A DNA stretch of 42,010 bases from Acidobacteriota bacterium (GTDB lineage: Bacteria > Acidobacteriota > UBA6911). The stretch spans positions 1 to 42,010 of the forward strand of contig JAAYAM010000325.1 in the NCBI GenBank assembly GCA_012719355.1, written 5' to 3'. This document shows, piece after piece, positions 949-18,732 of the stretch. Numbering within the stretch: the first letter of the stretch is position 1; each line of letters starts with the position of its first letter. The notes beneath the pieces are model-generated. The model made no database searches, was not told where the DNA came from, and saw nothing but the letters and a program-made list of their open reading frames with translations. The position numbers were made by a program, and so were the translations under genes.

Positions 949-3135
949 TCAGAAGGCGGGGCCGAGAGAGATATAGAAGTTGAATCTGCCCCCTTCGCCC
1001 CAGGCGACGGTGGCCCGAACAGGGCCGATCACCGAATCCAGTGCCGCTCCGACGCCGAAGCCGTTGAACAGCTTCAAGTCGTATGGTGTAGTCTCCCTGG
1101 GGCTGGAATAGATGCCGTTGTACGTCCCCGTCAGGAATCCACGCCTGAAGAAACCAAACGCGTTGGAGAAGATCTGCCGCCGGTAGCTCGCGCCGAAAAT
1201 AGCCATCTGGCGTGCAGTCAGCTCGTCACGTTCAAGCCCCAGAAACGGACGGGAGCCTATCTCGGAAAAATAGTATCCTCCGATGAAGAATTGATCGTAG
1301 AAGGGAACGGATCCCCGTGAGTGACCTGCGGTGCCGAACAACTGCAGAGTCGCTCTTTCGGTCAAAGGGAGAAAATGCCTGTAGTCAGCGGTCCATTTTG
1401 AATAATCCAAGACTCCGCCCAGCGCCCTGGTCCGCTTGTCGCCCACGAATCGCAGGTTTGCACCCCGGCGGGGAAACTCCTGATCGTCAAGCGAATCGTG
1501 ATTGAGCCGAAAGAGAAGACCTGTAAGGAAATTGGAGCCGGCCAGAACGTTGGGAAAAGAGCCGCCGGATATCCTGACCCGTTCCGCCTGTACACCGGCA
1601 CTCATTTCGATATGCCTCGACAGCGATCCTCCGATGACCAGCCGCAAGCCTTCCCGCCTGTCGATGAATCTATCGACAGTCGTCTTGTCTCGTATATCGA
1701 GTCGTTCCAGTCTGTAAGCATCGGCTCTCGGTTCCACGAAGAAGAAGGGGACATGAGACGGCACGTAACGGAACGCAGTGAAATAATTTTCGATGCCGCC
1801 GAACTGGATCGACAGGGCCGCGCTCGAAGGAGTCTTGAACAGCTGCCGCGCGGTGAATTCACCGAGTGCGACGAAGTCGTATTCATTATCGTAACGAAGA
1901 CTCACCCCCAGGGTTTGCAGCGCGGCCTCTTTCAGAATGAAGACAAGCTGATACTGACTTCTGCCGATGGGGACGAGATCATACCTGACGCTGTCAAAGA
2001 GCCGTGTCGCGTACAGCCGGGCTACATCCGCCTCAATCAGTTCCGGATCGACGGCCTGTCCGGCTGAGATCTTCAGGCTTGATTCCAGCTGTTCGGCAGC
2101 TATCCGGTTTAGCCCGCGGAATGAGATGTAGCCTATAACCGGTCTTGCGTTCCCGGCAGAAGGCAATTCAGGACGGGTTTTGATTTGACCGACGAGCAAC
2201 CTGATCTTGTCCAAATACCTGTCGGCCTCCTCTTCTCCCCGCCTTACGATCAGGGGAAGGCGGTCGTAATCCGTGTTGCTGATCTTGTCCAGGTGCGGCG
2301 TGAGCACCATGGTTGCCAGTCTCCTGTTCTCCTCAACGTTCCTTTCCATCTGCAGGCTGATCGACTGGTCGATGACGTCGACAAAATTGTTGATTTCGTC
2401 CTTCTCCAGAAGAGGGGAGGTAGCGTCGACCGCAATTACGATATCGGCGCCGAGTGAGCGCGCGACATCGACAGGCAGGTTATTTACGAGCCCGCCGTCG
2501 ACCAGAAGCATTCCGTCCTTTTCCAGGGGGGTGAACAGAAAGGGGACCGCAATGGAGGCCCGTAGCGCCTCAGTCATCGATCCCTCCTTGAAGATGAAAG
2601 GCTTCCCGTCGATCAGATTGGTCGAGATGGCCCTGAACTGGATCGGCAGATTGTCGAAGTCGAAATTCGCCTGGAGCATCCTGCTGGTTGTCAGTACATC
2701 AAGCGCCTGCGTCAGCCGCTGTCCTCCGAGAAGTCCGGTCGGCAATTCCGGCTCCCAGCCTCTGAATGACACCTGCGCCTGATATCTGGCGATCCTGCGT
2801 TCCATCAAAGGGGTCAGGTGCCTCTGGGGGGCGCCGCTGAAAATGGTGTTCCAGTCCTGGCCAAGGAGAATTCGTTCGAGCTCCTGCGCAGAATAGCCTG
2901 CCGAGAACAATCCTCCTGCAAGCGCCCCGAAACTCGTGCCGGTGATACAGTCGATCGGAATCCCTTCCCGCTCAAGAACTTTCAGTACCCCAATGTGGGC
3001 GGCGGCGCGAGCCCCGCCTCCGCTCAGCGCCAGCCCGATCTTGGGTCTCGTCTGCCGGTCTGCGGACGACGCCGGTTGTACGGTGAGAGGGTTCAGAAGC
3101 AGCGTGCAGACAAGGCTCAGGATTAATGGGCGCAT
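949..3135 (-). CDS. Patatin-like phospholipase with POTRA and outer-membrane barrel (PlpD-like type Vd autotransporter)
   Basis: The 728-residue protein starts with a signal peptide (about residues 1-25). A patatin lipase domain follows, with the oxyanion loop SGGGARAAAHIG near 38-49, nucleophile motif GTSFG (Ser68) and DGGLVNNLP (Asp213), a complete Ser-Asp dyad. After about residue 320 comes a POTRA-like segment (VIGYISFRGLNRIAAEQLE), then a C-terminal region rich in alternating aromatic strands ending in Phe, as in BamA/Omp85 barrels. This is the layout of PlpD, in which the barrel carries the lipase across the outer membrane. Inferred role: a surface-exposed or released phospholipase A. 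No clear Shine-Dalgarno precedes the ATG. It converges on the ABC ATPase gene. Confidence 0.88.
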   Translation of the reverse strand: MRPLILSLVCTLLLNPLTVQPASSADRQTRPKIGLALSGGGARAAAHIGVLKVLEREGIPIDCITGTSFGALAGGLFSAGYSAQELERILLGQDWNTIFSGAPQRHLTPLMERRIARYQAQVSFRGWEPELPTGLLGGQRLTQALDVLTTSRMLQANFDFDNLPIQFRAISTNLIDGKPFIFKEGSMTEALRASIAVPFLFTPLEKDGMLLVDGGLVNNLPVDVARSLGADIVIAVDATSPLLEKDEINNFVDVIDQSISLQMERNVEENRRLATMVLTPHLDKISNTDYDRLPLIVRRGEEEADRYLDKIRLLVGQIKTRPELPSAGNARPVIGYISFRGLNRIAAEQLESSLKISAGQAVDPELIEADVARLYATRLFDSVRYDLVPIGRSQYQLVFILKEAALQTLGVSLRYDNEYDFVALGEFTARQLFKTPSSAALSIQFGGIENYFTAFRYVPSHVPFFFVEPRADAYRLERLDIRDKTTVDRFIDRREGLRLVIGGSLSRHIEMSAGVQAERVRISGGSFPNVLAGSNFLTGLLFRLNHDSLDDQEFPRRGANLRFVGDKRTRALGGVLDYSKWTADYRHFLPLTERATLQLFGTAGHSRGSVPFYDQFFIGGYYFSEIGSRPFLGLERDELTARQMAIFGASYRRQIFSNAFGFFRRGFLTGTYNGIYSSPRETTPYDLKLFNGFGVGAALDSVIGPVRATVAWGEGGRFNFYISLGPAF

Positions 3136-4494: not shown

Positions 4495-5652
4495 CTACTC
4501 AGCACGGCGGCGGCGGAACGCAGGTTCATCGAGGTTGTCTTTGATCGATTCGAGCTGATAATCGATCGACGCCTTGCCTGGGTCCGATGAACTGAGCGGG
4601 ATTACGTTGTTGACGCTCCGCAGGTGATCGTTCACCGCTTTGGCCCTTTCGCTGCTGCTTTGGTTGAAGCCGGTCGCGATAACGGTAATCTTGATGCAGT
4701 CGCCCATGCTTTCATCATAGACCGCGCCAAATATCGTATCTTCCGCGCCCGCGATTTCTTCGATCACTTTTGCCGCCGCATCGACCTCGTGCAGCCGGAG
4801 GCTGTCGTGCGTGGCAGTGATGTTTATGAGAACTCCCCGTGCGCCGCGGATTGAAGTCTCCTCGAGGAGCGGGCTTGAGATGGCGCGCTGCGCGGCTTCG
4901 ACGGCGCGGTTCTGACCCTCGGCCATCCCGGTTCCCATCAAAGCCATTCCTTTGCCCGACATGATGGTCCGCACGTCTGCGAAGTCTACATTGACAATCC
5001 CGGGCATGGTGATGATGTCCGAGATTCCCTGGACTGCCTGGCAGAGCACGTCGTCGGCATAGCGAAACGATTCTTCCAGCAAAGCCTCCGGCCCCATGGC
5101 GCAGAGCAGGCGTTCGTTCGGGATCGTAATAAGGGTATCGACGACTTCCTTCAGCTCGTGCAGCCCTTCCTCCGCATGCTGCTGGCGCCTCTTTCCCTCG
5201 AAATTGAAGGGCTTGGTGACCACTCCAACAGTCAGGGCGCCGAGTTCGGTTGCCAGACTTGCGATGATCGGGGCCGCTCCGGTTCCGGTTCCGCCTCCCA
5301 TTCCCGCGGTTACGAATACCATGTCGGCACCATCCAGCAGTTCGATAATTCGCTCGGTGTCTTCGAGCGCCGCCTGTCTCCCTCTTTCCGGAACTGCGCC
5401 GCATCCCAGACCGTTCGTCAACTTCGAGCCGATCTGCAATTTGATCGGGGCGATCGAGTTGCGCAGCGCCTGGATGTCAGTATTGGCGGCAATGAATTCC
5501 ACTCCTCCTATTTTTGCCTGGATCATGCGGTTTACCGCATTACCGCCGCCGCCTCCGACTCCGATTACTTTTATCTTGGCGGGAGGCTGCCGTCCTTCAT
5601 CAAACCTGAATTTGAGTTCCTCATCTTCGAACCGCAGTTTCTCCGTTTGCAT
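4495..5652 (-). CDS. ftsZ: Cell division protein FtsZ
   Basis: FtsZ is the tubulin-like GTPase that forms the Z-ring and recruits the divisome. The N-terminal GTPase fold starts [16 protein letters not shown], the tubulin signature GGGTGTG is at about 119-125 and the catalytic loop reads NVDFADV. A short linker leads to the C-terminal peptide [12 protein letters not shown], which in the family binds FtsA and other membrane tethers. I chose the ATG at 5652 (385 residues, MQTEKLRF) because AAGGGA lies 8 nt upstream. In-frame ATGs at 5691 and 5700 would add 13 or 16 residues and overlap the ftsA stop. It is the last gene of the dcw cluster. Confidence 0.97.
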
Positions 5653-5683
5653 CGTGGTCTTCCCTTTCCCGTTTAGGTGCACT

Positions 5684-6922
5684 TCACTCATGCCCCACAT
5701 TACCTGCCCATTGCAGAATCCTCGTGAATATCCACGGTGAGTTTCCCGTTTTACCCACGCTCTTTTTCCGGTTTCCGGCCTTACTCGCTCCCAGCAAAGT
5801 GAGTCCTATTGCGGTGGCATAGACCGGGTGCGACAGCTCATCGTTGAGTCCCTTGACGCCGATGGGCAATCCCTGTCGCACGGGCATGCCCATTGTTTCC
5901 TCCGTAAGTTCCATAAGACCGTCAAGCATGCTCCCGCCTCCCGTGAGCACCATCCCTGCAATCAAGGGGTCGCTTCCGAGCGCCTTTCGCAAGTGATCCC
6001 TGACAAGTTCCAGCATCTCTGCGGCCCTGTCGCGCAGAATGCCGCACACGAGTGTCCGCGAAATCGAGCGGGATGCGCGCGTCCCTATGCCCGGAACCTC
6101 TACAAGTTCGTCGTCCTGCACTCTTTCAGTCAAAACCGTTCCAGTCTCTTTCTTGATACGTTCCGCTTCTTCCATCGGGGTTTGCAGCCCGATGGCGAGG
6201 TCCCGCGTAAAATGGGCACCTCCGACCGGCAGCACTTTCGTGAAGTGAACTGCGTTCTTCATGAAAATGGCGATGTCAGTTGTTCCGCCGCCGATGTCGA
6301 CGAGGGCAGTGCCGAGTTCGCGTTCGTCTTTCGTCAGGACGGCCTCGGCGCTGGCGAGCTGTTGAAGGATCACCCTCTTCACACGCATCTGGGCCCGGTT
6401 GACCGCGTTGATCAGGTTCTGATTCAAAGCGCTCTGGCAGGTTACGACGTGAATGTTCACATCCAGCCGTGATCCGTACAATCCGACGGGATTCTGAATG
6501 TCTCCGTGTTCATCGAGAAAAAACTCCTGCGGCAGGATATGGATGATTTCACGGTCAGGAGGAATCGCTACCGATTTTGCTGCATTGATTACCTGGGTCA
6601 TGTGCTCGGCTGTGACTTCCTGGTGATTCCCCTCGATCGTGATCGCGCCGTGGGAATTGAAACTCTGGAAATGAGAACCTGCGGCTCCCACCGTTACCCA
6701 GTCGATCGAAAGGTTCGATTTCTGTTCCGCTTCGTCGGCTGCTTTCCGGATTGACGCGGCAGCTTGATCGAGGTCCACTATCACGCCTTTCTTCAGTCCG
6801 GCGGAATCAGCATACCCCGTGCTGACCAGTTCCAGACTTCCGTCCGGAAGAACCTGCGCGATCATCATGCAGATTTTCGTGGTTCCGACGTCAAGTCCAC
6901 AAATAATGCGATTCTTCTTCAC
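5684..6922 (-). CDS. ftsA: Cell division protein FtsA
   Basis: FtsA is the actin-like ATPase that tethers FtsZ filaments to the membrane and signals to the late divisome. The sequence shows the phosphate-1 motif [14 protein letters not shown], the connector [15 protein letters not shown] and the adenosine motif [13 protein letters not shown]. The C-terminal segment [15 protein letters not shown] is amphipathic and fits the membrane-targeting helix. The likely start is the GTG at 6922 (412 residues, [13 protein letters not shown]). Its GTGA overlaps the ftsQ stop by 4 nt and GGGAA lies just upstream. An ATG at 6970 would add 16 poorly conserved-looking residues and overlap ftsQ by 52 nt. Confidence 0.96.
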
Positions 6923-7845
6923 CTGTTTCCCTTCGAATTCCTTGCCTCTTTTGTGCGAATCGGAAGCCACACTATGCGGTCGTCGAAGCGCAGATCTATC
7001 GATCCGATGTCGCCGTACTCATCTTTCAATTGCCGGTACTGTCCCATGTTTTCCATGAGGGTGCGAAAACGGCTGCCGTAATCCTGGTTTCCGAGGTGTA
7101 CTTCCGCAATGTCATCAACCATCAGAACCTTGAGATTCTTCCTGTCGGACAGATCGACTTCCGAGATTCTCATGGTGTCGTGCGGTGATTCGGCTTCGAT
7201 TTCTGCCAGCATCTCAAGTCCCTGCGCGATGCGGGCTGCGTTCTCCTCCTGGTGCAGCCGGTATCCTTCGGCATCTTCTCCCGACAAACCTTTGAAGACC
7301 GGCCCGTCGAGCTTTCCGTATTTCGGATCATACCGGCAGAGGAGTACGCCGTCTCTGTCGACAAGCATCAACTCGTCCCTGATTTCAACGATTGCGGCAG
7401 GGGTGCGTTCCTGAACATATATCACCAGGTCGGAAGGGAGGATGCGACGGATTTCAACGCGTCTGGCCCATGTCTCCTTTTCAAGTCGATCCTTCAGGCT
7501 GCGTAGGTCTATGCGCAGAACACTGGCGGGAAACTCGCTGCGGATTATTCCCTCGAGTTCCTCCGGATCGAGTTCCCTGCAGCCGTAGAGCTCGACGGAG
7601 CGAAGATTGAACTTATCGGAACTGTACGCGTAGAGAAAGAAGGACAAAACTAGAATAAGAACCATGAACAGAGCGCCAAGCTTGCCCAGAAGCTTCAGGG
7701 CCGAGAGAAGGCGACGCCCGGCGATCTGGCCCTTGCCGAGCTTGTTCTCGGCCTTCCTGCGGACGCGCCCCCCCTTGTCCGGCGGGGGGACGATCCGGCT
7801 GCCCGCTGTTTCTCTCATTCTGCCGGCAGTGGTCTTGATTTCCAT
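6919..7845 (-). CDS. ftsQ: Cell division protein FtsQ/DivIB
   Basis: This bitopic divisome protein scaffolds the FtsB-FtsL complex. About 50 basic, Pro-containing cytoplasmic residues precede one membrane helix (GKLGALFMVLILVLSFFLYA, about 53-74). A POTRA domain follows (FNLRSVELYGCRELDPEELE), then the FtsQ domain with VYVQERTPAAIVEI-like strands and IDLRFDDRIVWLP near the C-terminus. The ATG at 7845 shares one base with the murC stop (TGATG); a GTG directly before it (7848) is the alternative. The length, 308 residues, is normal. Tight coupling with murC and ftsA indicates co-transcription. Confidence 0.92.
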   Translation of the reverse strand: MEIKTTAGRMRETAGSRIVPPPDKGGRVRRKAENKLGKGQIAGRRLLSALKLLGKLGALFMVLILVLSFFLYAYSSDKFNLRSVELYGCRELDPEELEGIIRSEFPASVLRIDLRSLKDRLEKETWARRVEIRRILPSDLVIYVQERTPAAIVEIRDELMLVDRDGVLLCRYDPKYGKLDGPVFKGLSGEDAEGYRLHQEENAARIAQGLEMLAEIEAESPHDTMRISEVDLSDRKNLKVLMVDDIAEVHLGNQDYGSRFRTLMENMGQYRQLKDEYGDIGSIDLRFDDRIVWLPIRTKEARNSKGNR

Positions 7846-9212
7846 CACTTCTCAACTCTCAAAAACTGTTCACCCACTTTCCATACGTCCCCGGCTCCCA
7901 GGGTTATGAGCAGGTCTCCTTTACGCGTTTTTTCCTCCAGAACCTGCAGCACGCTCGCGGCGTCGGGCGCGAAGCTGACGTCGCGGTGTCCGTATCTTTT
8001 TATGAGTTCGACAAGCCTTTCTGCAGTGATTCCAGGTATCGGTTCTTCTCCCGCAGGATAAATCGGCATTACTATGAGGGCATCAGCATGGTAAAAGGCG
8101 CGCGCGAAATCCTCTTCCAGTGCCTGAATCCTCGTATACCGGTGCGGTTGAAATACCGTCAGGATTCTCCGGTCGCAGGCGTTTCTCGCAGCGCTGAGGG
8201 TAGCGATGATCTCAGTGGGATGGTGGCCGTAGTCGTCGACGACAAGTATGTCATCCCGTTTCCCTTTCAGCTGGAACCTGCGGTCGGCGTTCTGGAACGA
8301 GGAGAGGGCGGCAGCCGTCTTCTCAAACGGAATTTCCAGTTCGAGTCCCGTGGCGACTGCCGCCAGGGCGTTGAGCACTCCGTGTTTGCCCGGCACTCCG
8401 AGCCGTAGGGTTCCGAGCAAATCTCCTTTGTAGCGTATGGTGCAGCTTGTTCCGAAGTCCGCATGCTCCAGATGCGACGCCACCAGGTCTGCCTGGCTGC
8501 TCGTCCCGTACGTGATAATCCGCCGCTCGACACGGGGGATGACAGCCTGGATGTTGGGATCATCGAGACATAGAATCGCGGCCCCGTAAAACGGCACCCT
8601 GTTCACGAAGGCGACAAAGGCAGACTGTATCTCTTGCAGATCGGCGTAGTGGTCCAGGTGTTCACGATCGATGTTGGTGACAACCGCAATTGTTGGGGTC
8701 AGCTTCAGAAACGACCCGTCGCTTTCATCAGCCTCGGCCACCAGAAAATCGCCTTTGCCGAGTTTTGCGTTGCTCCCGAACGCATTCAGTCTCCCCCCTA
8801 TGACGGCCGTCGGATCAAAGCCGCCGGCTACCAGCACCGTTGCGATCATGGATGTGGTGGTGGTTTTTCCATGAGAACCGGCAACCGCAACCCCGTATTT
8901 CAGCCTCATAAGTTCGGCGAGCATTTCCGCCCTTGGAATTACCGGAATCTGCAGCCGCTTGGCTTCAGCGACCTCGATATTGTCAGGACGGACTGCAGAT
9001 GAGATGATTACGACGTCCGTCCCTTCGACGTTGTCCGCGCGGTGTCCGATGCAAATCCTTCCGCCGAGAGCGGCCAGTCTTTCTGTTACAGGGCTCGGCC
9101 TCAAATCAGATCCGGAGACGCGGTATCCAAGGTTGAGAAGGAGCTCGGCAATACCGCTCATCCCGATGCCTCCGATGCCGACAAAATGCAGTTTCTGGAT
9201 CTTTCTGAACAT
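7845..9212 (-). CDS. murC: UDP-N-acetylmuramate--L-alanine ligase MurC
   Basis: MurC adds L-alanine to UDP-MurNAc using ATP, the first peptide step of peptidoglycan synthesis, in the cytoplasm. The 455-residue protein has the N-terminal UDP-binding loop [17 protein letters not shown] and the ATP loop [15 protein letters not shown] at about 110-124. It also has [12 protein letters not shown] and [10 protein letters not shown], the last being characteristic of MurC. GGAG lies 6 nt before the ATG. The gene starts 2 nt after the ftsW stop, where murG is usually found in dcw clusters. murB, another common neighbour, is also absent from the window. Confidence 0.97.
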
Positions 9213-9214
9213 GA

Positions 9215-10321
9215 CTACTCCGCCGCCTCATGCAGGCCGTGATGCGAGAGATTAAGCAGCACTCCCGTTGCAATGAGGTTCATCAGGAGCGAACTCCCCC
9301 CCTGGCTCATGAACGGCAACGCGATCCCCTTGGTGGGCATCATCGCAAGCACCATCGATATGTTGATGAATCCCTGTAGCACGACCATCAGGGTGATACC
9401 GAGACCCAAATAGAAACCAAAACGGTCGGGACACCGCAGGATGATGCGTATCCCGCGAAAGAAGAAGACAAGAAATCCGATTGCGACCAAAGACGTTCCG
9501 ATCAATCCCAGTTCTTCGCCGATGACCGCAAATATGAAGTCACTGCTGGCCTCCGGAAGGAAGAAAAGCTTCTGTTTGCTGGCTCCGAGACCCACACCGG
9601 AAAATCCGCCGCTGCCGACGGCCGTCAGTGACTGCGAGATCTGCCAGCCCGATCCCAGCGGGTCATGGAATGGATTCACGAATGACTTGATCCTCTCCCA
9701 ACGGAAAGGAACTTTGACTACGAAGAAGTAGAAGACCCCGAGCGCAAGAACAGCCGCTCCTCCTATGTAGCGCCAGGAGAGACCTGCGATGAAGAGCAGA
9801 ATCGCCGTGATCATGCAAATGATCACCGCCTGCCCCAGGTCCGGTTCGATCGCGATCAGACCGGCGAAAAAGGCGATAACCAACCCGAATGGGAGCAGCC
9901 GCCTCAGCGGCTGGTTGATCTGATCTTCGTACTTGTGCAGAAACGCGGCAATAAACATCAGGAGTATCAGCTTGGCTACCTCGGAAGGCTGAAAGGATAT
10001 GAAGCCCCAACGCAGCCAGCGGTGAGCGCCGTTGATTTTCGGCTGTGTCAGGACAAATGCAAGCACGGCCGCGCAGCACAGAAGTAGTACTAACAGCACT
10101 TTCGGTTTCTGCCATACGTGATAGTCCTTGTTCATCACTACTATCAGAAAGGCGAATCCCAAGGCTGCGTGCACCAGTTGCCGCATGAAGAAATACGAAG
10201 ACATCCCGTGCTGCGAAGAAGCGACGACGGAAGACGCGCTGTAAACCATCACGAGCCCGAAAATTGTGAGGAAAACAACGCTGAAGAACAGGATCCTGTC
10301 GTTTGTCGGTTTATAGGCCAT
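9215..10321 (-). CDS. ftsW: Peptidoglycan glycosyltransferase FtsW (SEDS family)
   Basis: FtsW polymerises lipid II at the septum together with its class B PBP partner. The 368-residue integral membrane protein shows about ten hydrophobic segments, the conserved loop [19 protein letters not shown], the extracellular motif [19 protein letters not shown] with the acidic residues expected in SEDS enzymes, and [20 protein letters not shown]. FtsW rather than RodA is supported by its position three bases after murD within the dcw cluster. No obvious Shine-Dalgarno precedes the ATG, so translation may depend on coupling to murD. Confidence 0.95.
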
Positions 10322-10324
10322 AGT

Positions 10325-11692
10325 TCAGTGGCGCAAGCTCCTGACCGCGTTTTTGAAAACACGGCCACGAACTTCGTAGTCCTGAAACATATCGAAACTG
10401 GCGCAGGCTGGAGCAAGCAGGACAACGTCTCCAGGTTGCGCAATCCGTTTGCACGTCTGTACCGCGTCTTGCATGGAAGATGCTTCCGTCATGTCAACAG
10501 TCTCACCAAGCGCCTTCCTGATCTTCTCCGCGGCTTCGCCGATCAGGACCAGGTGTTTTACACGCTCACGGACGAGCGGCCTCAGGACCGTGAAATCCCC
10601 TGCCTTGTCGCGTCCTCCTGCAATCAGCAGGATATTGCGCGGAAAAGCCTCCAGTGCTTTGATCGCTGCGTCGATGTTTGTGGCTTTCGAGTCGTTATAG
10701 TACCGGACTCCTTCGATTTCGGAGACCCATTCGATTCGATGTTCGACTGCTTCGAATCTGCGGACGCTCTCCTCGAAGCTTTCAGGGGCTGCACCCGCCA
10801 AAATGGCCATCGCGCACGCTGCAAGCACATTCTCCAGATTGTGGGCCCCCACTAGTTTGATGGCTGAAACGGGGAACAGCTCGGTCTCGCCGTTTTCGTC
10901 CCGATAGATCACGCGTTCGTTGCGAATGAATGCCCCGAATCCCGCGTTTTTCAGGCGGCTGAAGATGATCGGCCTTGCCTGCACCCGGGCCGCCAGGGCC
11001 GCGGTTGCCATGTCATCGCCGTTGAGCACCGCAAAATCAGAATCTTTCTGATTCCGGAACACCCTCTGTTTCGCAGCACCGTAATCTTCGAACCTGCCAT
11101 AGCGATCCATGTGGTCCGGGGTGATATTCAGCATTGAGGCGATGAACGGCCGGAACTGATCAATTGCTTCGAGCTGAAAGCTGGAGAGCTCCACAGCGTA
11201 AATGTCTTCCTCGGTCGATTCAGGAACGAGACTGATCAGCGGCGTCCCGATATTTCCGGCGGCGTGCCCCCTTAGTCCGGCGCCCGTAAGCAGGCGTTCG
11301 ACCAGAGTCGTCGTAGTCGTTTTTCCATTAGAGCCGGTGATCCCGATGATTTTCCCCTTCAGATGACGGTATGCGAGCTCTACCTCGGCAATTACAGGAA
11401 TGCCGGCTTTGCGGCTCGTCTCGAAAAACTCCAGTGAGAGCGGGACTCCCGGGCTGACGACCACGAGATCGCAGTTGCGGAATGCATCGTCCCTGTGGCC
11501 TCCGAGTTCAAGCACGAGGTTTTTTCGATGAATCAGGGATTCCAGCAATGGTTCCACAACTGTCTCGAGTGCCGCGAAGGTTTTCGTGTCGGTGAGGGTC
11601 ACATGGGCTCCCGAATCGAGCAGAAAGCGGGCCGCCGCCAATCCGCTTCTCGCCGCTCCGACCACCAGTATCTTCTTGCCGTTGTACTCCAT
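10325..11692 (-). CDS. murD: UDP-N-acetylmuramoylalanine--D-glutamate ligase MurD
   Basis: MurD adds D-glutamate to UDP-MurNAc-L-Ala with ATP hydrolysis. The 455-residue protein begins with an N-terminal Rossmann-type loop (ILVVGAARSGLAAARFLL), then the central ATP loop GITGSNGKTTTTTLVE at about 117-132, ELSSFQLEAI, and the C-terminal motif YYNDSKATNIDAAIKAL that is diagnostic for MurD. The closest GGAG is about 17 nt upstream of the ATG, so no well-spaced ribosome-binding site is seen. Only 21 bp separate it from murF, where mraY would be expected. Confidence 0.97.
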   Translation of the reverse strand: MEYNGKKILVVGAARSGLAAARFLLDSGAHVTLTDTKTFAALETVVEPLLESLIHRKNLVLELGGHRDDAFRNCDLVVVSPGVPLSLEFFETSRKAGIPVIAEVELAYRHLKGKIIGITGSNGKTTTTTLVERLLTGAGLRGHAAGNIGTPLISLVPESTEEDIYAVELSSFQLEAIDQFRPFIASMLNITPDHMDRYGRFEDYGAAKQRVFRNQKDSDFAVLNGDDMATAALAARVQARPIIFSRLKNAGFGAFIRNERVIYRDENGETELFPVSAIKLVGAHNLENVLAACAMAILAGAAPESFEESVRRFEAVEHRIEWVSEIEGVRYYNDSKATNIDAAIKALEAFPRNILLIAGGRDKAGDFTVLRPLVRERVKHLVLIGEAAEKIRKALGETVDMTEASSMQDAVQTCKRIAQPGDVVLLAPACASFDMFQDYEVRGRVFKNAVRSLRH

Positions 11693-11713
11693 AGGAAAAT
11701 GCTCAGAACTCCA

Positions 11714-13138
11714 TTACTTCAAAACTTCATATTGCCTGCCCAGATCGCTTATGACTTTCTCCAGACGGACGCCCCTGGAGCCCTTTACCAGCACAAGATC
11801 TCCCTCCCGGACTTCGCTCCTGATCAGGTCCAGAGCATCTTCTGCGGCGGGAAAGAAGTATCCCTTCGCTCCCGACCCTCCTGACTCATCGAACCCTCTG
11901 ACGATTTCGCTCGACGCTCCCTGGATCCCGACAAGCACATCAACTCCGCGCGCGGCCGCGATACGTCCGCATTCATAGTGAAGAGCACCGGAACTGCTTC
12001 CCAGTTCCAGCATCTCGCCGGCAATGACAATACGTCGCTTAAACAAAGGTACTTTCGACAGGACATCGATCATCTGTACGAGCGCGTTTGGATTGGAATT
12101 GTAGGAGTCGTCTATGACGACGAATCCCTGGGCAAAACGGATAACCTGACCGCGCATGGAAGCGTTCTCCAGCATCCCGATGCTCTGGACGATGCGCGGA
12201 AGAGTGATTCCGAACGACGCTCCGAGCGCCGCCCCTGCGAGCGCATTCATCACGTAGTGCACGCCTGCCAGCGCGATTTTCGCATCAGAGGAAATCCCGC
12301 GCCATGAGATCCGGAACGTGGTTTCGTCAAGGCTCAGAATCTTCACGTTGTCGGCGCGCACGTCTGCGGAATCGGAGAAGCCGAAGGAAACCTTCCGGCC
12401 CGGAAAGTCTGCTGCGATGTTGTTCACCAGCGGGTCATCTGCGTTATAGATGAGCGTGCCGTCAGGCGGAAGCGCTGCGGCGAGCTCTCCTTTGGCTCTG
12501 GCGATCTGCTCGAGTGAAGAGAAAAACTGCAGGTGAACGGGCGCGACGTTTGTGATTATCCCCACAGAGGGCGTGGCGATGCGGCACATTTCCTCTATCT
12601 CTCCGGGTGCGCTCATTCCCATTTCAAATATTCCAAGGTCATACTCGGAGCCAAGGCCGAACAGCGCGAGAGGAAGTCCGAAAAGGTTGTTGTAATTGCC
12701 GGGCGTTCGGTAGACGCTAAATTTGCTCCTCATTATGTTACATGCAAATTCCCGTGTGGTTGTCTTGCCCATGCTCCCGGTCACCGCGACCAGGATTCCG
12801 TGCCAGCGGTTTCTCATCCAGCGAGCGAGCTTTTTCAGGGCATCGTGCGTGTCGTCAACCTTGATCAGGACACGGTCGGCAGGGAACTCGTCCGGGTGCT
12901 CGTAATTCCGCTCCGCGACAATTCCTGCGGCTCCCTTCGACAGCGCCTCCGCTATAAAACGGTGTCCGTCCTGGTTCGGTCCGCGGATTGCGAAGAAGAC
13001 GTCTCCTGCACGCACGGTACGGGTGTCGATCGAAACCCTGGAGAAAACTTTCTCCTTCGATCCTTTTACCAGGACTCCCCCCGTTCCGGTTTCTGAATCA
13101 GCTGCAGTCAGTGTTGACATCTTTTCTTTCAAGCTCAC
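11714..13138 (-). CDS. murF: UDP-N-acetylmuramoyl-tripeptide--D-alanyl-D-alanine ligase MurF
   Basis: MurF completes the cytoplasmic precursor by adding the D-Ala-D-Ala dipeptide. Visible motifs are SIDTRTVRAGDVFFAIRG in the N-terminal domain, the ATP loop VAVTGSMGKTTTREFA near 117-132, FEMGMSAPGEI and VIDDSYNSNPNAL, the last two typical of MurF. The GTG at 13138 gives 474 residues and overlaps murE by 41 nt. An in-frame ATG at 13120 (MSTLTAADS) is an equally plausible start. The ddl gene that supplies D-Ala-D-Ala is not in the window. Confidence 0.97.
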   Translation of the reverse strand: MSLKEKMSTLTAADSETGTGGVLVKGSKEKVFSRVSIDTRTVRAGDVFFAIRGPNQDGHRFIAEALSKGAAGIVAERNYEHPDEFPADRVLIKVDDTHDALKKLARWMRNRWHGILVAVTGSMGKTTTREFACNIMRSKFSVYRTPGNYNNLFGLPLALFGLGSEYDLGIFEMGMSAPGEIEEMCRIATPSVGIITNVAPVHLQFFSSLEQIARAKGELAAALPPDGTLIYNADDPLVNNIAADFPGRKVSFGFSDSADVRADNVKILSLDETTFRISWRGISSDAKIALAGVHYVMNALAGAALGASFGITLPRIVQSIGMLENASMRGQVIRFAQGFVVIDDSYNSNPNALVQMIDVLSKVPLFKRRIVIAGEMLELGSSSGALHYECGRIAAARGVDVLVGIQGASSEIVRGFDESGGSGAKGYFFPAAEDALDLIRSEVREGDLVLVKGSRGVRLEKVISDLGRQYEVLK

Positions 13139-14600
13139 GCTTCCTGATCAATTCCTCCGCAATCCGTGCGTCGTCAAACGGGACGGTGCGGTCCTCCAGG
13201 ATCTGGTAGTTCTCGTGTCCCTTCCCGGCGATTACCACGACATCTCCAGGAGCTGCCAGCGAGATTGCCGAGTCTATAGCTTTGCGGCGGTCAGGCTCCA
13301 CCACATATTGAGCGGGTCCTTTGCTCAGCCCTGCTTCGATATCTCTCAGAATCTGCAGCGGGTCCTCGGATCTCGGGTTGTCGGAAGTCGCCACCACCAG
13401 ATCTGACATACCTGCAGCAATCTCCCCCATGATCGGACGTTTACCCTTGTCCCGGTCCCCGCCGCAGCCGAACACGAGGATGAGCCTCGAGTGAGGAAGA
13501 CCGGAGATTGTGTTAAGGAGGTTCTCGAGAGCGTCGGGAGAATGCGCATAATCGACGATGACACTGAAATCCTGGCCCGTCTTCACGCGTTCGACACGTC
13601 CCGGAACGCCCCGCAGCGCCTCCACCCCGTTGCGGATCTGCTCCGGCGCGAGGCCCTGGCAAAGGGCGGCTCCCGTTGCCGCCATTACGTTGTACACATT
13701 CGGCTTTCCGATCATGTGCGCATGGAACGTGATCTCGCCTGCAGGCGTCTTCAGTGTCAGATCCGTCGCATCCACGTGATTTTCGCAGCGAACCACATGA
13801 ATTGCCGCCCCGGCGTCAAATCCGAAGCTCATCGCAGGACAGTCGGTTTCTGATACGAGGCGTCGTCCGTACGGGTTATCAATATTGATAACGGCGTGTT
13901 CCACCCGGTTTTCGTTTTCGGAGGAGAACAGAAGACGTTTCGCCTGGTAGTACGACTCCATGTCCCGGTGGAAATCGAGGTGGTCCTGCGTGAGATTGGT
14001 GAAGATTCCCACCTTGAAACGCGTGCCAAAAACGCGCTTCAGCACGAGTGCGTGCGAGGAGACTTCAAGAGCTCCGTGAGTGCAGCCTTGCTCTACCGCC
14101 TGCTTCAGGAATATCGTCAGGTCCGGAGCTTCCGGCGTCGTGTGCCTGGCCTCGCAGGAGCGGTCTCCGATCTTCATCCCGATCGTTCCGATGAGGCACG
14201 ACCTGAGGCCGGCTGATTCGAAAATCGACTCCATCAGGTAAGAGGTTGTGGTCTTTCCGTTTGTTCCCGTGATTGCGGTGAGAGTCAGCTTTTCTGCAGG
14301 ATCATCGAAAAACACCCGGGAGATTTCGGCGAGAAATCTGCGGGCATCCTCGACCAGGATGGCCGCGACCTTCTGCTGTGCAGCCCCGGTCATGTGTTCG
14401 GATGCGACGGCGGCGGCGCCGCTGCGGATCGCCTGTTGCACGAAACGGTTGCCATCGGTCTTTTCGCCCTTGACGGCCACGAAGAGGTGCCCTTCCCGGA
14501 CAGAGCGGGAATCGTAGGAAATTCCGCTGATTCGGACACCGACATCCCCGAGGCAATCGATTACAGGGATTCGTTCGAGGGCATTACTCAATAACATCAA
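13098..14600 (-). CDS. murE: UDP-MurNAc-tripeptide synthetase MurE, meso-diaminopimelate type
   Basis: MurE adds the third residue of the stem peptide. The 500-residue enzyme shows ISYDSRSVREGHLFVA in the uridine-binding domain, the ATP loop TAITGTNGKTTTSYLME around 111-126, and HTTPEAPDL. The substrate-selecting motif DNPRSEDP starts at residue 407. DNPR is the signature of enzymes that accept meso-diaminopimelate rather than L-lysine, so this organism should have a DAP-type Gram-negative peptidoglycan. AGAGG lies 5 nt before the ATG. It follows ftsI by 8 nt and overlaps murF. Confidence 0.97.
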   Translation of the reverse strand: MMLLSNALERIPVIDCLGDVGVRISGISYDSRSVREGHLFVAVKGEKTDGNRFVQQAIRSGAAAVASEHMTGAAQQKVAAILVEDARRFLAEISRVFFDDPAEKLTLTAITGTNGKTTTSYLMESIFESAGLRSCLIGTIGMKIGDRSCEARHTTPEAPDLTIFLKQAVEQGCTHGALEVSSHALVLKRVFGTRFKVGIFTNLTQDHLDFHRDMESYYQAKRLLFSSENENRVEHAVINIDNPYGRRLVSETDCPAMSFGFDAGAAIHVVRCENHVDATDLTLKTPAGEITFHAHMIGKPNVYNVMAATGAALCQGLAPEQIRNGVEALRGVPGRVERVKTGQDFSVIVDYAHSPDALENLLNTISGLPHSRLILVFGCGGDRDKGKRPIMGEIAAGMSDLVVATSDNPRSEDPLQILRDIEAGLSKGPAQYVVEPDRRKAIDSAISLAAPGDVVVIAGKGHENYQILEDRTVPFDDARIAEELIRKRELERKDVNTDCS

Positions 14601-14608
14601 AACCTCTT

Positions 14609-16708
14609 CTATGGCCTGTCATTCCCGGATCGCTCGGCATCGGCCCGCTGAGCCGCGTAGTGTGCCTCGGCAGCGGCAAGCTGGCTTCTCCAGTTGGATT
14701 TTGCAAACGTCACGCTGCAGGTCGTGCCCGTTCGCACTTCGGTCCCCGGCATGGGTGACTGATAAACCGCCACGCCAGCGCCATTAGCCTGCAGGCGAAT
14801 GCCGAGGTCGATGCAACGGGCAAGAACAGTTCTTTTGCCCATTCCCCTGAAATCAGGGAGTGTAACCGTTTCGCGCCCCGGTTGCATCGTGATTATCTCT
14901 CTCGTGCCGGTTTTGGGTTCTTTGCCGGCGGACCGGATCGGTTGGACAGGGTTCGGCAAGTAATCTTCCGAATCCGCATCCGCAAGAAGAGGGGTGAATG
15001 ACGGCATCGGAAGATTCTTGTCCGGCGCCACGCGCAGCTGCAGGAGCACTTCCTGTGCAATGTTTCGGAAGATCGGCCCTGCGACTTCTCCCCCATAGTG
15101 GGAACCCCGGGGCTCGTCGATCTGAACAAGGACCGTGATGCGTGGCCGTGGAAGCGGGGCGAATCCTATGAAGGATGCGACATACTTGCTGTTGGAGTAT
15201 CTGCCGTTGATGATTTTTTGGGCAGTTCCGGTTTTTCCCGCTGCCCGGTAGCCTTCCAGTGCGGCCCGCTTGCCGGTGCCGCGCACGACGACTCCTTCGA
15301 ATGCCTCCGCCACGGCCTGTGCCGTCTTGGGGCTCATCAGTCGTACTCTCTCCTGTGAACGCACTCTGACGGCATCTCCATTTTCGTCTATGATACAGTC
15401 GACAACAGTAGGTTGGACCCTGTATCCGCCATTGGCGATGGCATTGATGGCTGTGAGGATCTGGACGGAAGTGACTCCTATCTCCTGTCCGAATGAGATG
15501 GCGCCTATCGACAGGCCGGACCAGTCCCGCCAGTGACGAACCAAACCCACTATCTCGCCCGGGAGATCGATTTTGGTTTTGGATCCGAAGCCGAAATTGC
15601 GCAACGCTTCATAAAGACCCTGCTCACCGAGGCGCAGCCCAAGTTTGGCCGCTCCGACATTTGAAGAGAATTCGAGAACCTGGCTGAAAGTCAGCAGGTC
15701 GTATGCCTTGTGGTCTCGGAAAACGTGCCTGCCGATTGTGATGGATCCCATCTGGCAGTCGATCAACTCGTCCGGTCGTGTCAGGCCTGCTTCCAGTGCT
15801 GCTGCGGCGACGACCACCTTGAATGTTGATCCCGGCTCGAAGGCGTCTGCAACAGCCCGGTTGCGCCAGTGGTCAGGCTTGCACTGGTTGTACAGGTTGC
15901 AGTTGTACTGGGGATAATTCGAGAGGGCCAGGATCCTCCCGGTATCGGATTCCATTACGATCGCAGTTCCGGCGCGCGCCCGTGCTTTTTCGGCACCTGC
16001 AGTCAATTCCCTGTCTGTGATGTACTGGATGGATTTGTCTATGCTGAGCACGAGCGAGTGCCCCTGGACCGGTGGCTTGTCAACTTTCAGGCGGAATGAG
16101 CGGCGGCGTGCATCGACATCAAAAGAGAAGACACCTTCCTGTCCTTTGAGATCCCTGTCGTACTGCAGTTCGAGTCCTTCGCCCCCGTCTCCGTCCATAT
16201 TGACGAACCCGAGGACGTGGCAGGCAAGTTCCCGATTCGGATAGACGCGCATGCTCTCTTCGACCAGGTAGATTCCGTCGATTCCGAGCGCTTCTATCTG
16301 CTCCCCGGCCTGCGGGTCGATCCTGCGTTGGATCACCATGAAGGTTTTTCGCGCCGGGTCCGTCATTCGGGTCAGAAGTTCATGGGATTGGCGGGAATCC
16401 ATCTCGAGAATGGTGGCGAGATTGCGGGCGGCCGATGGTATGTCTTCTATCCTGCGGGGTTCTGCCACTACCGTGCTGACACTGACGCTCGAGGCCAGTT
16501 CGTCCATGTGGCTGTCGTAGATGACTCCGCGGGGGGCGAAAATTGAGCGGGTAATCTGCTGCCGCTGCGTGGCGAGGCCTGCAAACGTCTCCTGCTGAAA
16601 GATCTGCAGTTGAATCAGCCGGATGATTATCAGGAGACTCCAGAGAGTGATCCCCAGTATCACTGCAGCGATTCGAGTGGTTTTGAATCCTTTGCCGGTC
16701 TCTGACAT
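14609..16708 (-). CDS. ftsI: FtsI-type penicillin-binding protein (class B transpeptidase) with C-terminal PASTA domain
   Basis: This septal transpeptidase cross-links peptidoglycan and partners FtsW. The 699-residue protein has one membrane anchor (TRIAAVILGITLWSLLIIIR, 11-30), a PBP dimerisation domain, and the full active-site set: SxxK as STFK (Ser294, Lys297), SxN as SSN (348-350) and KTGT at 492-495. A linker leads to a single PASTA-like domain at about 615-668 (VTLPDFRGMGKRTVLARCIDLG ... PGTEVRTGTTCSVTF). PASTA is familiar on Gram-positive and Spo5D-like PBPs but absent from E. coli FtsI. The ATG has no Shine-Dalgarno; a hairpin-forming repeat ends directly in front of it. Confidence 0.95.
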   Translation of the reverse strand: MSETGKGFKTTRIAAVILGITLWSLLIIIRLIQLQIFQQETFAGLATQRQQITRSIFAPRGVIYDSHMDELASSVSVSTVVAEPRRIEDIPSAARNLATILEMDSRQSHELLTRMTDPARKTFMVIQRRIDPQAGEQIEALGIDGIYLVEESMRVYPNRELACHVLGFVNMDGDGGEGLELQYDRDLKGQEGVFSFDVDARRRSFRLKVDKPPVQGHSLVLSIDKSIQYITDRELTAGAEKARARAGTAIVMESDTGRILALSNYPQYNCNLYNQCKPDHWRNRAVADAFEPGSTFKVVVAAAALEAGLTRPDELIDCQMGSITIGRHVFRDHKAYDLLTFSQVLEFSSNVGAAKLGLRLGEQGLYEALRNFGFGSKTKIDLPGEIVGLVRHWRDWSGLSIGAISFGQEIGVTSVQILTAINAIANGGYRVQPTVVDCIIDENGDAVRVRSQERVRLMSPKTAQAVAEAFEGVVVRGTGKRAALEGYRAAGKTGTAQKIINGRYSNSKYVASFIGFAPLPRPRITVLVQIDEPRGSHYGGEVAGPIFRNIAQEVLLQLRVAPDKNLPMPSFTPLLADADSEDYLPNPVQPIRSAGKEPKTGTREIITMQPGRETVTLPDFRGMGKRTVLARCIDLGIRLQANGAGVAVYQSPMPGTEVRTGTTCSVTFAKSNWRSQLAAAEAHYAAQRADAERSGNDRP

Positions 16709-17287: not shown

Positions 17288-18262
17288 TTATCTGCGCTCC
17301 AGCGACCTCAGGCGGGCGCTTCGCGAGCGCGGATTTGATGCGAGCTCCTCGGGCCTTGGGGTCATTGGACGGTGAGTGATCAGATTGGCCAGCGCCTGTC
17401 TGGGACAGGTGCAGAGTTCGGGCGGCGCCTCGCAGACGCACTGCCCGGCAAGCTTTCGGAAAACTCTCTTGACGATTCTGTCTTCAAGTGAATGGAAGGC
17501 GATGACAACGAGCCTTCCACCCGGTCTAAGGAAATCGAATGAGCGCGAGAGAAATCCTTCCAGTCCCTCCAGTTCCTCGTTCACTGCGATCCGCAACGCC
17601 TGGAAGGTCCGCGTTGCAGGGTGGATGGTCTGATGTCCCCGTGCTTTGAGGACCCTGCTGATCACCTCCGCCAGCTGTGAGCAGCGTGTTATGGGTGTCC
17701 TGGTCCGCTCCTGGACAATCGCCGCCGCAATCCTTCGTGAGAGACGCTCCTCTCCATAGCGGTAGATCAGGTCGGCCAGCTCTGTTTCCGGAAGGTTGTT
17801 CACAAGGTCGGCCGCCGTCCATTGTTGTGTCCGGTCCATGCGCATGTCCAGTTTTGCGTCCGACTGGAAACTGAAGCCGCGCTCCGGTGCCGTAAGCTGG
17901 TACGAAGAGACTCCAAGATCTACCAGGATGCCGTCCACCGGTCGGCTTGTCAGGTTGTTCAGAATCAGCGGAAGGTTTTTGAAGTTGTCATGAAGCAGCC
18001 GCAGACTCTCTGAATGCCGTCTGAGCCGGACCTGCGCCTTTTCCAGCGACTCCTTGTCGCGGTCTATCCCAATCAGCTGCCCGCCGGGCTGAATACACTC
18101 CAGGATGGCCTGACTGTGACCTCCAAGCCCCACGGTGGCGTCTACGTACGTGCCGCCGGGCCGGCATTGAAGGAGGTCAATCACCTCCTTCAGCATAACT
18201 GGAGTATGGCCTGGATCGCTGTTTCCCGTATATGTCATAAGTTTCCGGGCCGTGGCTCTCAC
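17288..18262 (-). CDS. rsmH: 16S rRNA (cytosine1402-N4)-methyltransferase RsmH (MraW)
   Basis: RsmH methylates C1402 in the decoding centre of 16S rRNA using SAM. The sequence begins HTPVMLKEVIDLL after a short leader. It carries the SAM motif YVDATVGLGGHSQAIL, GILVDLGVSSYQL, and the C-terminal region VIAFHSLEDRIVKRVFR typical of the family. The GTG at 18262 overlaps the mraZ stop by 4 nt (GTGA) and has GGAG 5 nt upstream, giving 324 residues; an internal ATG at 18238 is possible. Its place directly after mraZ is the classical dcw arrangement. Confidence 0.96.
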   Translation of the reverse strand: MRATARKLMTYTGNSDPGHTPVMLKEVIDLLQCRPGGTYVDATVGLGGHSQAILECIQPGGQLIGIDRDKESLEKAQVRLRRHSESLRLLHDNFKNLPLILNNLTSRPVDGILVDLGVSSYQLTAPERGFSFQSDAKLDMRMDRTQQWTAADLVNNLPETELADLIYRYGEERLSRRIAAAIVQERTRTPITRCSQLAEVISRVLKARGHQTIHPATRTFQALRIAVNEELEGLEGFLSRSFDFLRPGGRLVVIAFHSLEDRIVKRVFRKLAGQCVCEAPPELCTCPRQALANLITHRPMTPRPEELASNPRSRSARLRSLERR

Positions 18263-18732
18263 TTGTTCTCCATCCGCGGTTCTGAAACTGCCGCCTGCTT
18301 CTGTTGATTGATACGCTCTGCCAGCCCCCCGAGCTCTTCGGTAGTGAGAGGATCATGAACGAATTGGTTTCGGAAGATCTCTTCATTCCAGACTTCCACG
18401 TGGTCGGTGGCCCCGATGACCACTACATCACCTGATATTTTAGCCGCTTCTCTCAGGGTCTGCGGGATCATGATCCTCCCCTGCGGATCCATCTGTGATA
18501 CAAGCCCGAAATATCCGGTGATCCGCTGCAGCTTCTGCTGCACGGGGTCCATGCCCGCGTATTGCTGCAATTCCCGGGCGATCCTTTCCCAGACTTCTAT
18601 GGGGAAAACCTTGGCGTGCTTCCCGTCATAACTGGTCACAAAATACGTGTCCTGATCATCACGCCGGAACTTCGCCGGCATCCGCAGACGGGATTTTTCA
18701 TCGATTTTTGCCGAAAAGCTGCCCCAAAGCAT
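18259..18732 (-). CDS. mraZ: Transcriptional regulator MraZ
   Basis: MraZ is the DNA-binding repressor of the dcw operon. Its two AbrB/SpoVT-like half-domains each show the conserved D-x-K/Q-x-R...P pattern, IDEKSRLRMPAKFR near the N-terminus and MDPQGRIMIPQTLRE in the second half. The 157-residue length is near the usual 140-150, with a charged Gln-rich tail. It is the first gene of the cluster, and three spaced repeats resembling MraZ operators lie at its promoter, so autoregulation is likely. Only weak ribosome-binding potential precedes the ATG. Confidence 0.95.
   Translation of the reverse strand: MLWGSFSAKIDEKSRLRMPAKFRRDDQDTYFVTSYDGKHAKVFPIEVWERIARELQQYAGMDPVQQKLQRITGYFGLVSQMDPQGRIMIPQTLREAAKISGDVVVIGATDHVEVWNEEIFRNQFVHDPLTTEELGGLAERINQQKQAAVSEPRMENK

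Follow-up and report, generated by a model that had tools for sequence, protein, structure and literature searches.

Probable displacement of the dcw-encoded mraY and murG genes by a horizontally acquired lipid II module in a genus of Acidobacteriota

The window, by which we mean the whole stretch of 42,010 nucleotides that was analysed, carries a dcw cluster on its minus strand. Open reading frames, read together with NCBIfam and Pfam profiles, give the order mraZ-rsmH-ftsI-murE-murF-murD-ftsW-murC-ftsQ-ftsA-ftsZ. The genes and the two junctions of interest are listed here from the first gene of the cluster onward.

18259..18732, minus strand: mraZ, first gene of the cluster (Pfam MraZ, 2.1e-18)
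17288..18262, minus strand: rsmH (mraW) (TIGR00006, 2.6e-107)
14609..16708, minus strand: ftsI-type penicillin-binding protein, 699 aa (top NCBIfam match spoVD_pbp, 6.5e-151)
13098..14600, minus strand: murE (NF001126, 2e-173)
11714..13138, minus strand: murF (TIGR01143, 1.6e-118)
11693..11713: murF/murD junction, 21 bp, the site of mraY in sister genera, without a remnant
10325..11692, minus strand: murD (TIGR01087, 1.3e-135)
9215..10321, minus strand: ftsW (TIGR02614, 8.4e-113)
9213..9214: ftsW/murC junction, 2 bp, the site of murG in sister genera, without a remnant
7845..9212, minus strand: murC (TIGR01082, 2.1e-161)
6919..7848, minus strand: ftsQ (NF004039, 1.3e-11)
5684..6970, minus strand: ftsA (TIGR01174, 1.3e-123)
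4495..5700, minus strand: ftsZ (TIGR00065, 3.9e-122)

Of the dcw genes covered by open reading frames and profile searches, only mraY and murG are missing from this cluster. The initial annotation had claimed that exactly these two are absent and that their neighbors lie 21 bp (murF/murD) and 2 bp (ftsW/murC) apart; the profile-based gene order confirms the first statement, and the coordinates agree with the second to the base. Elsewhere in the window, positions 949-3135 (minus strand) encode a 728-aa patatin, POTRA and Omp85 protein that resembles PlpD-type (type Vd) secreted phospholipases.

Is the absence of the two genes real, and is it derived? In nine further genomes of the genus, both junctions are closed, with 5-47 bp between the ends of the homology matches, which leaves no room for a remnant of mraY or murG. 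Since the closed junctions are repeated in these nine genomes, they are not an assembly slip, and the possibility that a better assembly would reveal intact genes at these positions falls away. Nor is the absence a matter of chance: in g2 and g4, sister genera within one family (f1) with this genus, mraY lies between murF and murD, and murG lies between ftsW and murC. Thus, the dcw order differs between this genus, which lacks both genes, and its sister genera, which hold both in place, and the absence is derived within the family. This also disposes of the suggestion that the lineage never had the two genes in its cluster.

Where, then, are mraY and murG? The initial annotation expected both elsewhere in the genome, and a genome search located them outside the window, in a murG-mraY-murJ operon on contig G000:C154 (locus L004). 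The three genes lie on one strand and overlap or abut.

G000:C154 3329-5362, plus strand: module murG, fused to a HEAT domain
G000:C154 5359-6465, plus strand: module mraY, its start overlapping the murG stop
G000:C154 6465-8063, plus strand: module murJ

Profile and protein searches of this genome found only one MraY that passes the family cut-off and only one MurG, and the two are neighbors on C154. A weaker second MraY match on C210 scores best as a WecA-type enzyme. There are two MurJ genes, at G000:C154:6525-8039 (the module gene) and G000:C201:54197-55693. The prediction that the two missing genes might sit together, perhaps with undecaprenyl-phosphate genes, proved half right: they are side by side, but the gene that accompanies them is murJ, and among the module neighbors that were read none was recognised as an undecaprenyl-phosphate gene.

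The module is present in 10/10 genomes of the genus, and dcw copies of mraY or murG are present in 0/10. In most of these genomes, the module operon includes murJ as well. In the nine further genomes, the two module genes again lie side by side, and their products are 58%-70% (MurG-HEAT, full length) and 73%-82% (MraY) identical to those of the present genome. Most of the genomes are drafts, and the assembly that contains the window consists of 377 contigs with 4.2% contamination, so one might suppose that the module contig is a contaminant and that the dcw genes were dropped by misassembly. An assembly or binning artefact of this kind has a negligible probability, given that ten genomes of the genus combine closed junctions with a module whose identity (58%-82%) tracks their divergence, and that G145, a single-contig genome, has the module and a dcw cluster with neither mraY nor murG.

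The module MurG is a 677-aa protein in which a complete GT28 MurG is followed by C-terminal HEAT repeats that form a solenoid of ~270 aa. Pfam finds the N- and C-domains of GT28 (PF03033 and PF04101) and a HEAT match (PF13646, 5.4e-10). The AlphaFold model has a mean pLDDT of 90.5; its N-terminal part matches solved MurG structures, and after a short disordered linker comes a solenoid made only of helices (residues 417-675, pLDDT mostly >84). In an even draw of genomes, the MurG-type HEAT domain occurs in 28/197 genomes and 15/123 genera, with 8/28 of these genomes coming from this genus. Matches to a profile of the domain always fell within MurG reading frames in the 197 genomes, and no free-standing relative was found among them at E 1e-12.

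Are the module proteins likely to perform the two lipid steps? The module MraY scores 288.9 bits against TIGR00445, above the cut-off of 192.05. It retains the catalytic Asp pair and the NxxNxxDGLDGLA, GDTG and HH residues; D118, D119, N196, N199, D202, D205, D274, H333 and H334 are conserved at ≥97% in 71 sequences. The module MurG scores 231.7 bits against TIGR01133, below the cut-off of 250.25, with a full-length match (2-353) that is by far the best of any family. Its residues H17, E130, N132, S204, N211, R290, E298 and Q319 are invariant in 32/32 aligned sequences. Numbering follows the proteins of this genome, and the roles of the residues are presumed to be those assigned in the E. coli and A. 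aeolicus enzymes. On the strength of these signatures, the module MurG is expected to convert lipid I to lipid II. At other positions, the module MraY departs from the canonical enzyme: Q58 is replaced by D, P65 and H68 are lost (positions 65 and 68 are variable), M329 is replaced by R, and both the final His of HHH and the Glu that comes after it (E337) are replaced. As a result, it fails the canonical HHHxE and Q..P..H signature, reading HH[A/T/S/Q/E]x[Q/T] with D58. The dcw copies of MraY keep the canonical signature, which marks the usual clade and is not a proof of catalysis. Loss of the signature residues at 58, 65, 68, the third His and E337, together with the sub-threshold MurG score, might suggest that the module makes some other polyprenyl-linked glycan, with peptidoglycan lipid II coming from unrecognised enzymes. 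We regard this as very improbable because the module supplies the only MraY and MurG in genomes where the Mur ligases, ftsW and ftsI are retained, no variation is seen at the catalytic Asp and His positions of MraY or at the active-site positions of MurG, MraY clears its equivalog cut-off, and the native genes vanish wherever the module is present.

Phylogeny separates the module proteins from their dcw counterparts. In the MraY tree, the module proteins form a single clade, set apart from every dcw copy with support of 100/100, and this holds when other phyla are added. The MurG tree has the same split (100/100) and largely the same internal groups, which indicates that module mraY and murG share a history and travel together. 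That both genes lie elsewhere and side by side could be taken to mean that the native pair was simply rearranged to another place. Such a relocation is extremely improbable and is refuted by the two trees: the dcw proteins of g2 and g4 are only ~40% (MraY) and ~30% (MurG) identical to those of the module and belong to the other clade, and the module MurG has its additional HEAT domain.

How did the module come to this genus? The MraY and MurG trees place the genus with G339 (family f41) and f63, then f38. The dcw tree, built from seven concatenated dcw proteins as a stand-in for the species tree and weakly supported at its deeper forks, places the genus with other f1 genera and G339 with other f41 genera. 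When the vertical grouping was forced on the module tree, it was rejected (p-AU 5.9e-52), as was a grouping of G339 with G236, its neighbor in the dcw tree (p-AU 3.6e-9). This conflict between the module and dcw trees indicates that the module moved horizontally, and horizontal transfer is the simplest reading of the sequence comparisons. It is also conceivable that an ancestor of the Acidobacteriota had both the dcw pair and the module, and that which of the two a lineage lost was a matter of chance. The long, fully supported branch between module and dcw copies does imply that the module is old, and G236 still has both types of MraY. We nevertheless consider ancient paralogy improbable. It is at odds with the rejection of both forced groupings; it would require both to have been kept for long periods in many lineages and several subtypes; complete pairs of both types occur together in no genome examined; and within f1, f41 and f14 there are single genera unlike their sisters, the module being confined to this genus in f1, to one genus in f41 and to some genera in f14.

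The off-dcw module was found in 13 Acidobacteriota families (f1, f41, f63, f38, f15, f36, f26, f14, f23, f56, f42, f76 and f33). One of the genomes, G004, has a contig that is the same as JAISUT010000029.1, from an Acidobacteriota MAG, throughout the region compared, and genome G109 of f38 matches a record of Candidatus Aminicenantes. Beyond the phylum, the module occurs at least in Latescibacterota, Gemmatimonadota, Myxococcota, UBP6/rumen bacteria and one Syntrophobacterales MAG. Clustering of neighboring reading frames found no extra partner gene common to all module lineages beyond murJ. A 365-aa protein with an inactive Peptidase_M16_C domain is encoded beside the module or close to it in eight genomes of f15, f36 and f38 (for example, L085:10537-11631, minus strand). 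Two further clusters have peculiarities of their own: the dcw cluster of the Latescibacterota genome G403 (L268) is missing murD besides mraY and murG, and that of G280 (L162) has murE out of its usual place, inverted just upstream of mraZ.

The module and the native genes exclude each other almost completely. In 67 Acidobacteriota genomes whose dcw clusters were read, dcw murG is absent from 40/40 genomes with the module and present in 27/27 without it; most of these are draft MAGs, and contig ends break several clusters, so that in some of them absence was read from a single junction (the dcw sequence of G244, for example, does not cover murF-murD). For dcw mraY, the sole discordant genome is G236. 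The state of the module changes at least seven times on the dcw tree, and independent pairs are concordant in 6/6 cases for module presence and dcw murG absence (sign test, p 0.031). The module appears to have taken over the lipid II steps in at least six lineages.

Intermediate states suggest how the native genes were lost. First, G236 (f33) carries the module on contig C119 and still has mraY in its dcw cluster on C62, and murG is gone from the ftsW-murC interval on C46. One of its two MraYs falls in the module clade and the other in the dcw clade. Second, in UBP6 genomes, which carry the module, dcw mraY is gone and a degenerate MurG remains between ftsW and murC:

L271:12317-13408, genome G406: degenerate dcw MurG
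L273:7496-8620, genome G408: degenerate dcw MurG

These proteins score 112-115 bits against the cut-off of 250, have lost the GGTGGH motif and sit on a branch of length 3.5, which suggests either a non-enzymatic role or decay. Thus, with the module present, native mraY and murG can be lost separately, murG alone in G236 and mraY alone in UBP6. Simultaneous excision of the two genes is ruled out by these intermediates. Where the initial annotation saw an unusual pattern of two independent, clean excisions, the pattern points instead to redundant genes lost after the module had arrived.

What is the role of murJ in the module? Lipid II must be flipped, and in several families the flippase is fused to MurG. 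In f15 and f36, one reading frame of 1071-1290 aa encodes MurG-MurJ-HEAT; the order MurJ-MurG-HEAT is found in genus g30 of f23, in f56 and in the Syntrophobacterales MAG; and in genus g93 of f23, murJ is a separate frame just upstream. The fused MurJ scores 281.2 (L085), 299.5 (L116), 268.6 (L084) and 281.8 bits (L188) against the TIGR01695 cut-off of 235.55, and that of G287 (f36) falls below it (202.2). A model of the f15 fusion (L085) matches MurJ (7waw, 5t77) and MurG crystal structures in one chain; its mean pLDDT of 78.7 and pTM of 0.53 mean that we do not trust its placement of the domains. In the tested genomes of f15, f36 and f56, no other MurJ reached the family cut-off, and a second MurJ is present in f23 g30 and in G402. 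The fusions are Rosetta-stone evidence that MurG and MurJ probably act in proximity. MraY is tied to the module only by operon structure and co-inheritance. The partnership with MurJ is not universal, since murJ is not adjacent to mraY in G004, G007, G009, G339 and f63, and searches with TIGR01695 detected no MurJ in G100 and G079 (f38), G052 (f26) and G108 (f42). The f38, f26 and f42 genomes may use another flippase, for example, one of the Amj type.

Taken together, the trees, the exclusivity and the intermediates argue that the module has very probably replaced the native pair, and displacement of dcw mraY and murG by a horizontally acquired lipid II module is the likely overall explanation for the cluster in the window. 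Arrival of the module would have made native mraY and murG redundant, and the redundant copies would then have been deleted in separate steps. HEAT repeats are generic interaction modules, and a scaffolding or channelling role for the HEAT domain is somewhat favored. MraY would make lipid I; the solenoid would hold MurG at the membrane beside MraY and would also put it beside MurJ, either directly or, in relatives, by way of fusion, as with the covalent MurG-MurJ tether of f15, f36, f23 (g30) and f56; and lipid I, then lipid II, would be handed to the flippase within one assembly. The best reading is that a scaffolded module for lipid II synthesis and flipping, for which we infer channelling, has taken over the lipid steps by xenologous replacement. 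A bolder version, which we think unlikely, holds that an obligate MraY-MurG-MurJ synthase-flippase complex, joined by the MurG-specific HEAT scaffold or as a single polypeptide, replaces the dcw lipid steps wholesale, and that it spread between phyla by escaping phage lysis proteins, nucleoside antibiotics and bacteriocins that hit canonical MraY or MurJ. The idea of escape is prompted by the altered MraY signature.

What are the implications of such a replacement? First, few bacterial gene clusters are as conserved as the one to which mraY and murG belong, and a foreign pair would have taken the place of both genes on several independent occasions. Second, natural MurG-MurJ-HEAT fusions would offer a direct handle on the passage of lipid II from synthase to flippase. 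Third, since the module MurG lies below its NCBIfam cut-off, profile-based annotation may call genomes with the module MurG-less. Fourth, the altered signature region of MraY is relevant to MraY as a drug target. A published comparison of dcw gene trees with a species tree of 117 genes reported the closest agreement for mraY (PMC8871954), which makes replacement of mraY more surprising. The literature searched, with many subscription papers outside its scope, contained no description of a MurG-HEAT fusion, a MurG-MurJ fusion or a replacement of this kind.

How does the module compare with known systems? Like canonical dcw MraY and MurG (TIGR00445 and TIGR01133), the module is expected to carry out the same two reactions, and it keeps the catalytic residues; E. 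coli MraY (8g01) and MurG (1f0k) are the nearest solved relatives in the PDB. Unlike the canonical pair, it lies outside the dcw cluster, each of its proteins forms a separate clade, the native genes are absent, its MurG ends in a HEAT solenoid and the signature positions of its MraY are altered. There is a partial parallel in MglA of Kitasatospora and Streptomyces, an alternative MurG that occurs besides dcw murG and, like the module MurG, is a distant homologue; it can functionally replace MurG (PMC8092295). However, MglA coexists with canonical murG, which is present in all strains studied there (PMC8092295), and it is not known to come with a replaced MraY or with a fusion to HEAT or MurJ. 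A second parallel is the MurE-MurF fusion of Bordetella, where MurG has been proposed as an oligomeric scaffold (PMC6420597). Both there and in the module, successive peptidoglycan enzymes are covalently linked and MurG is cast as an organiser (PMC6420597). The module differs in what it links: a glycosyltransferase, a flippase and a HEAT solenoid, with the cytoplasmic ligases left untouched.
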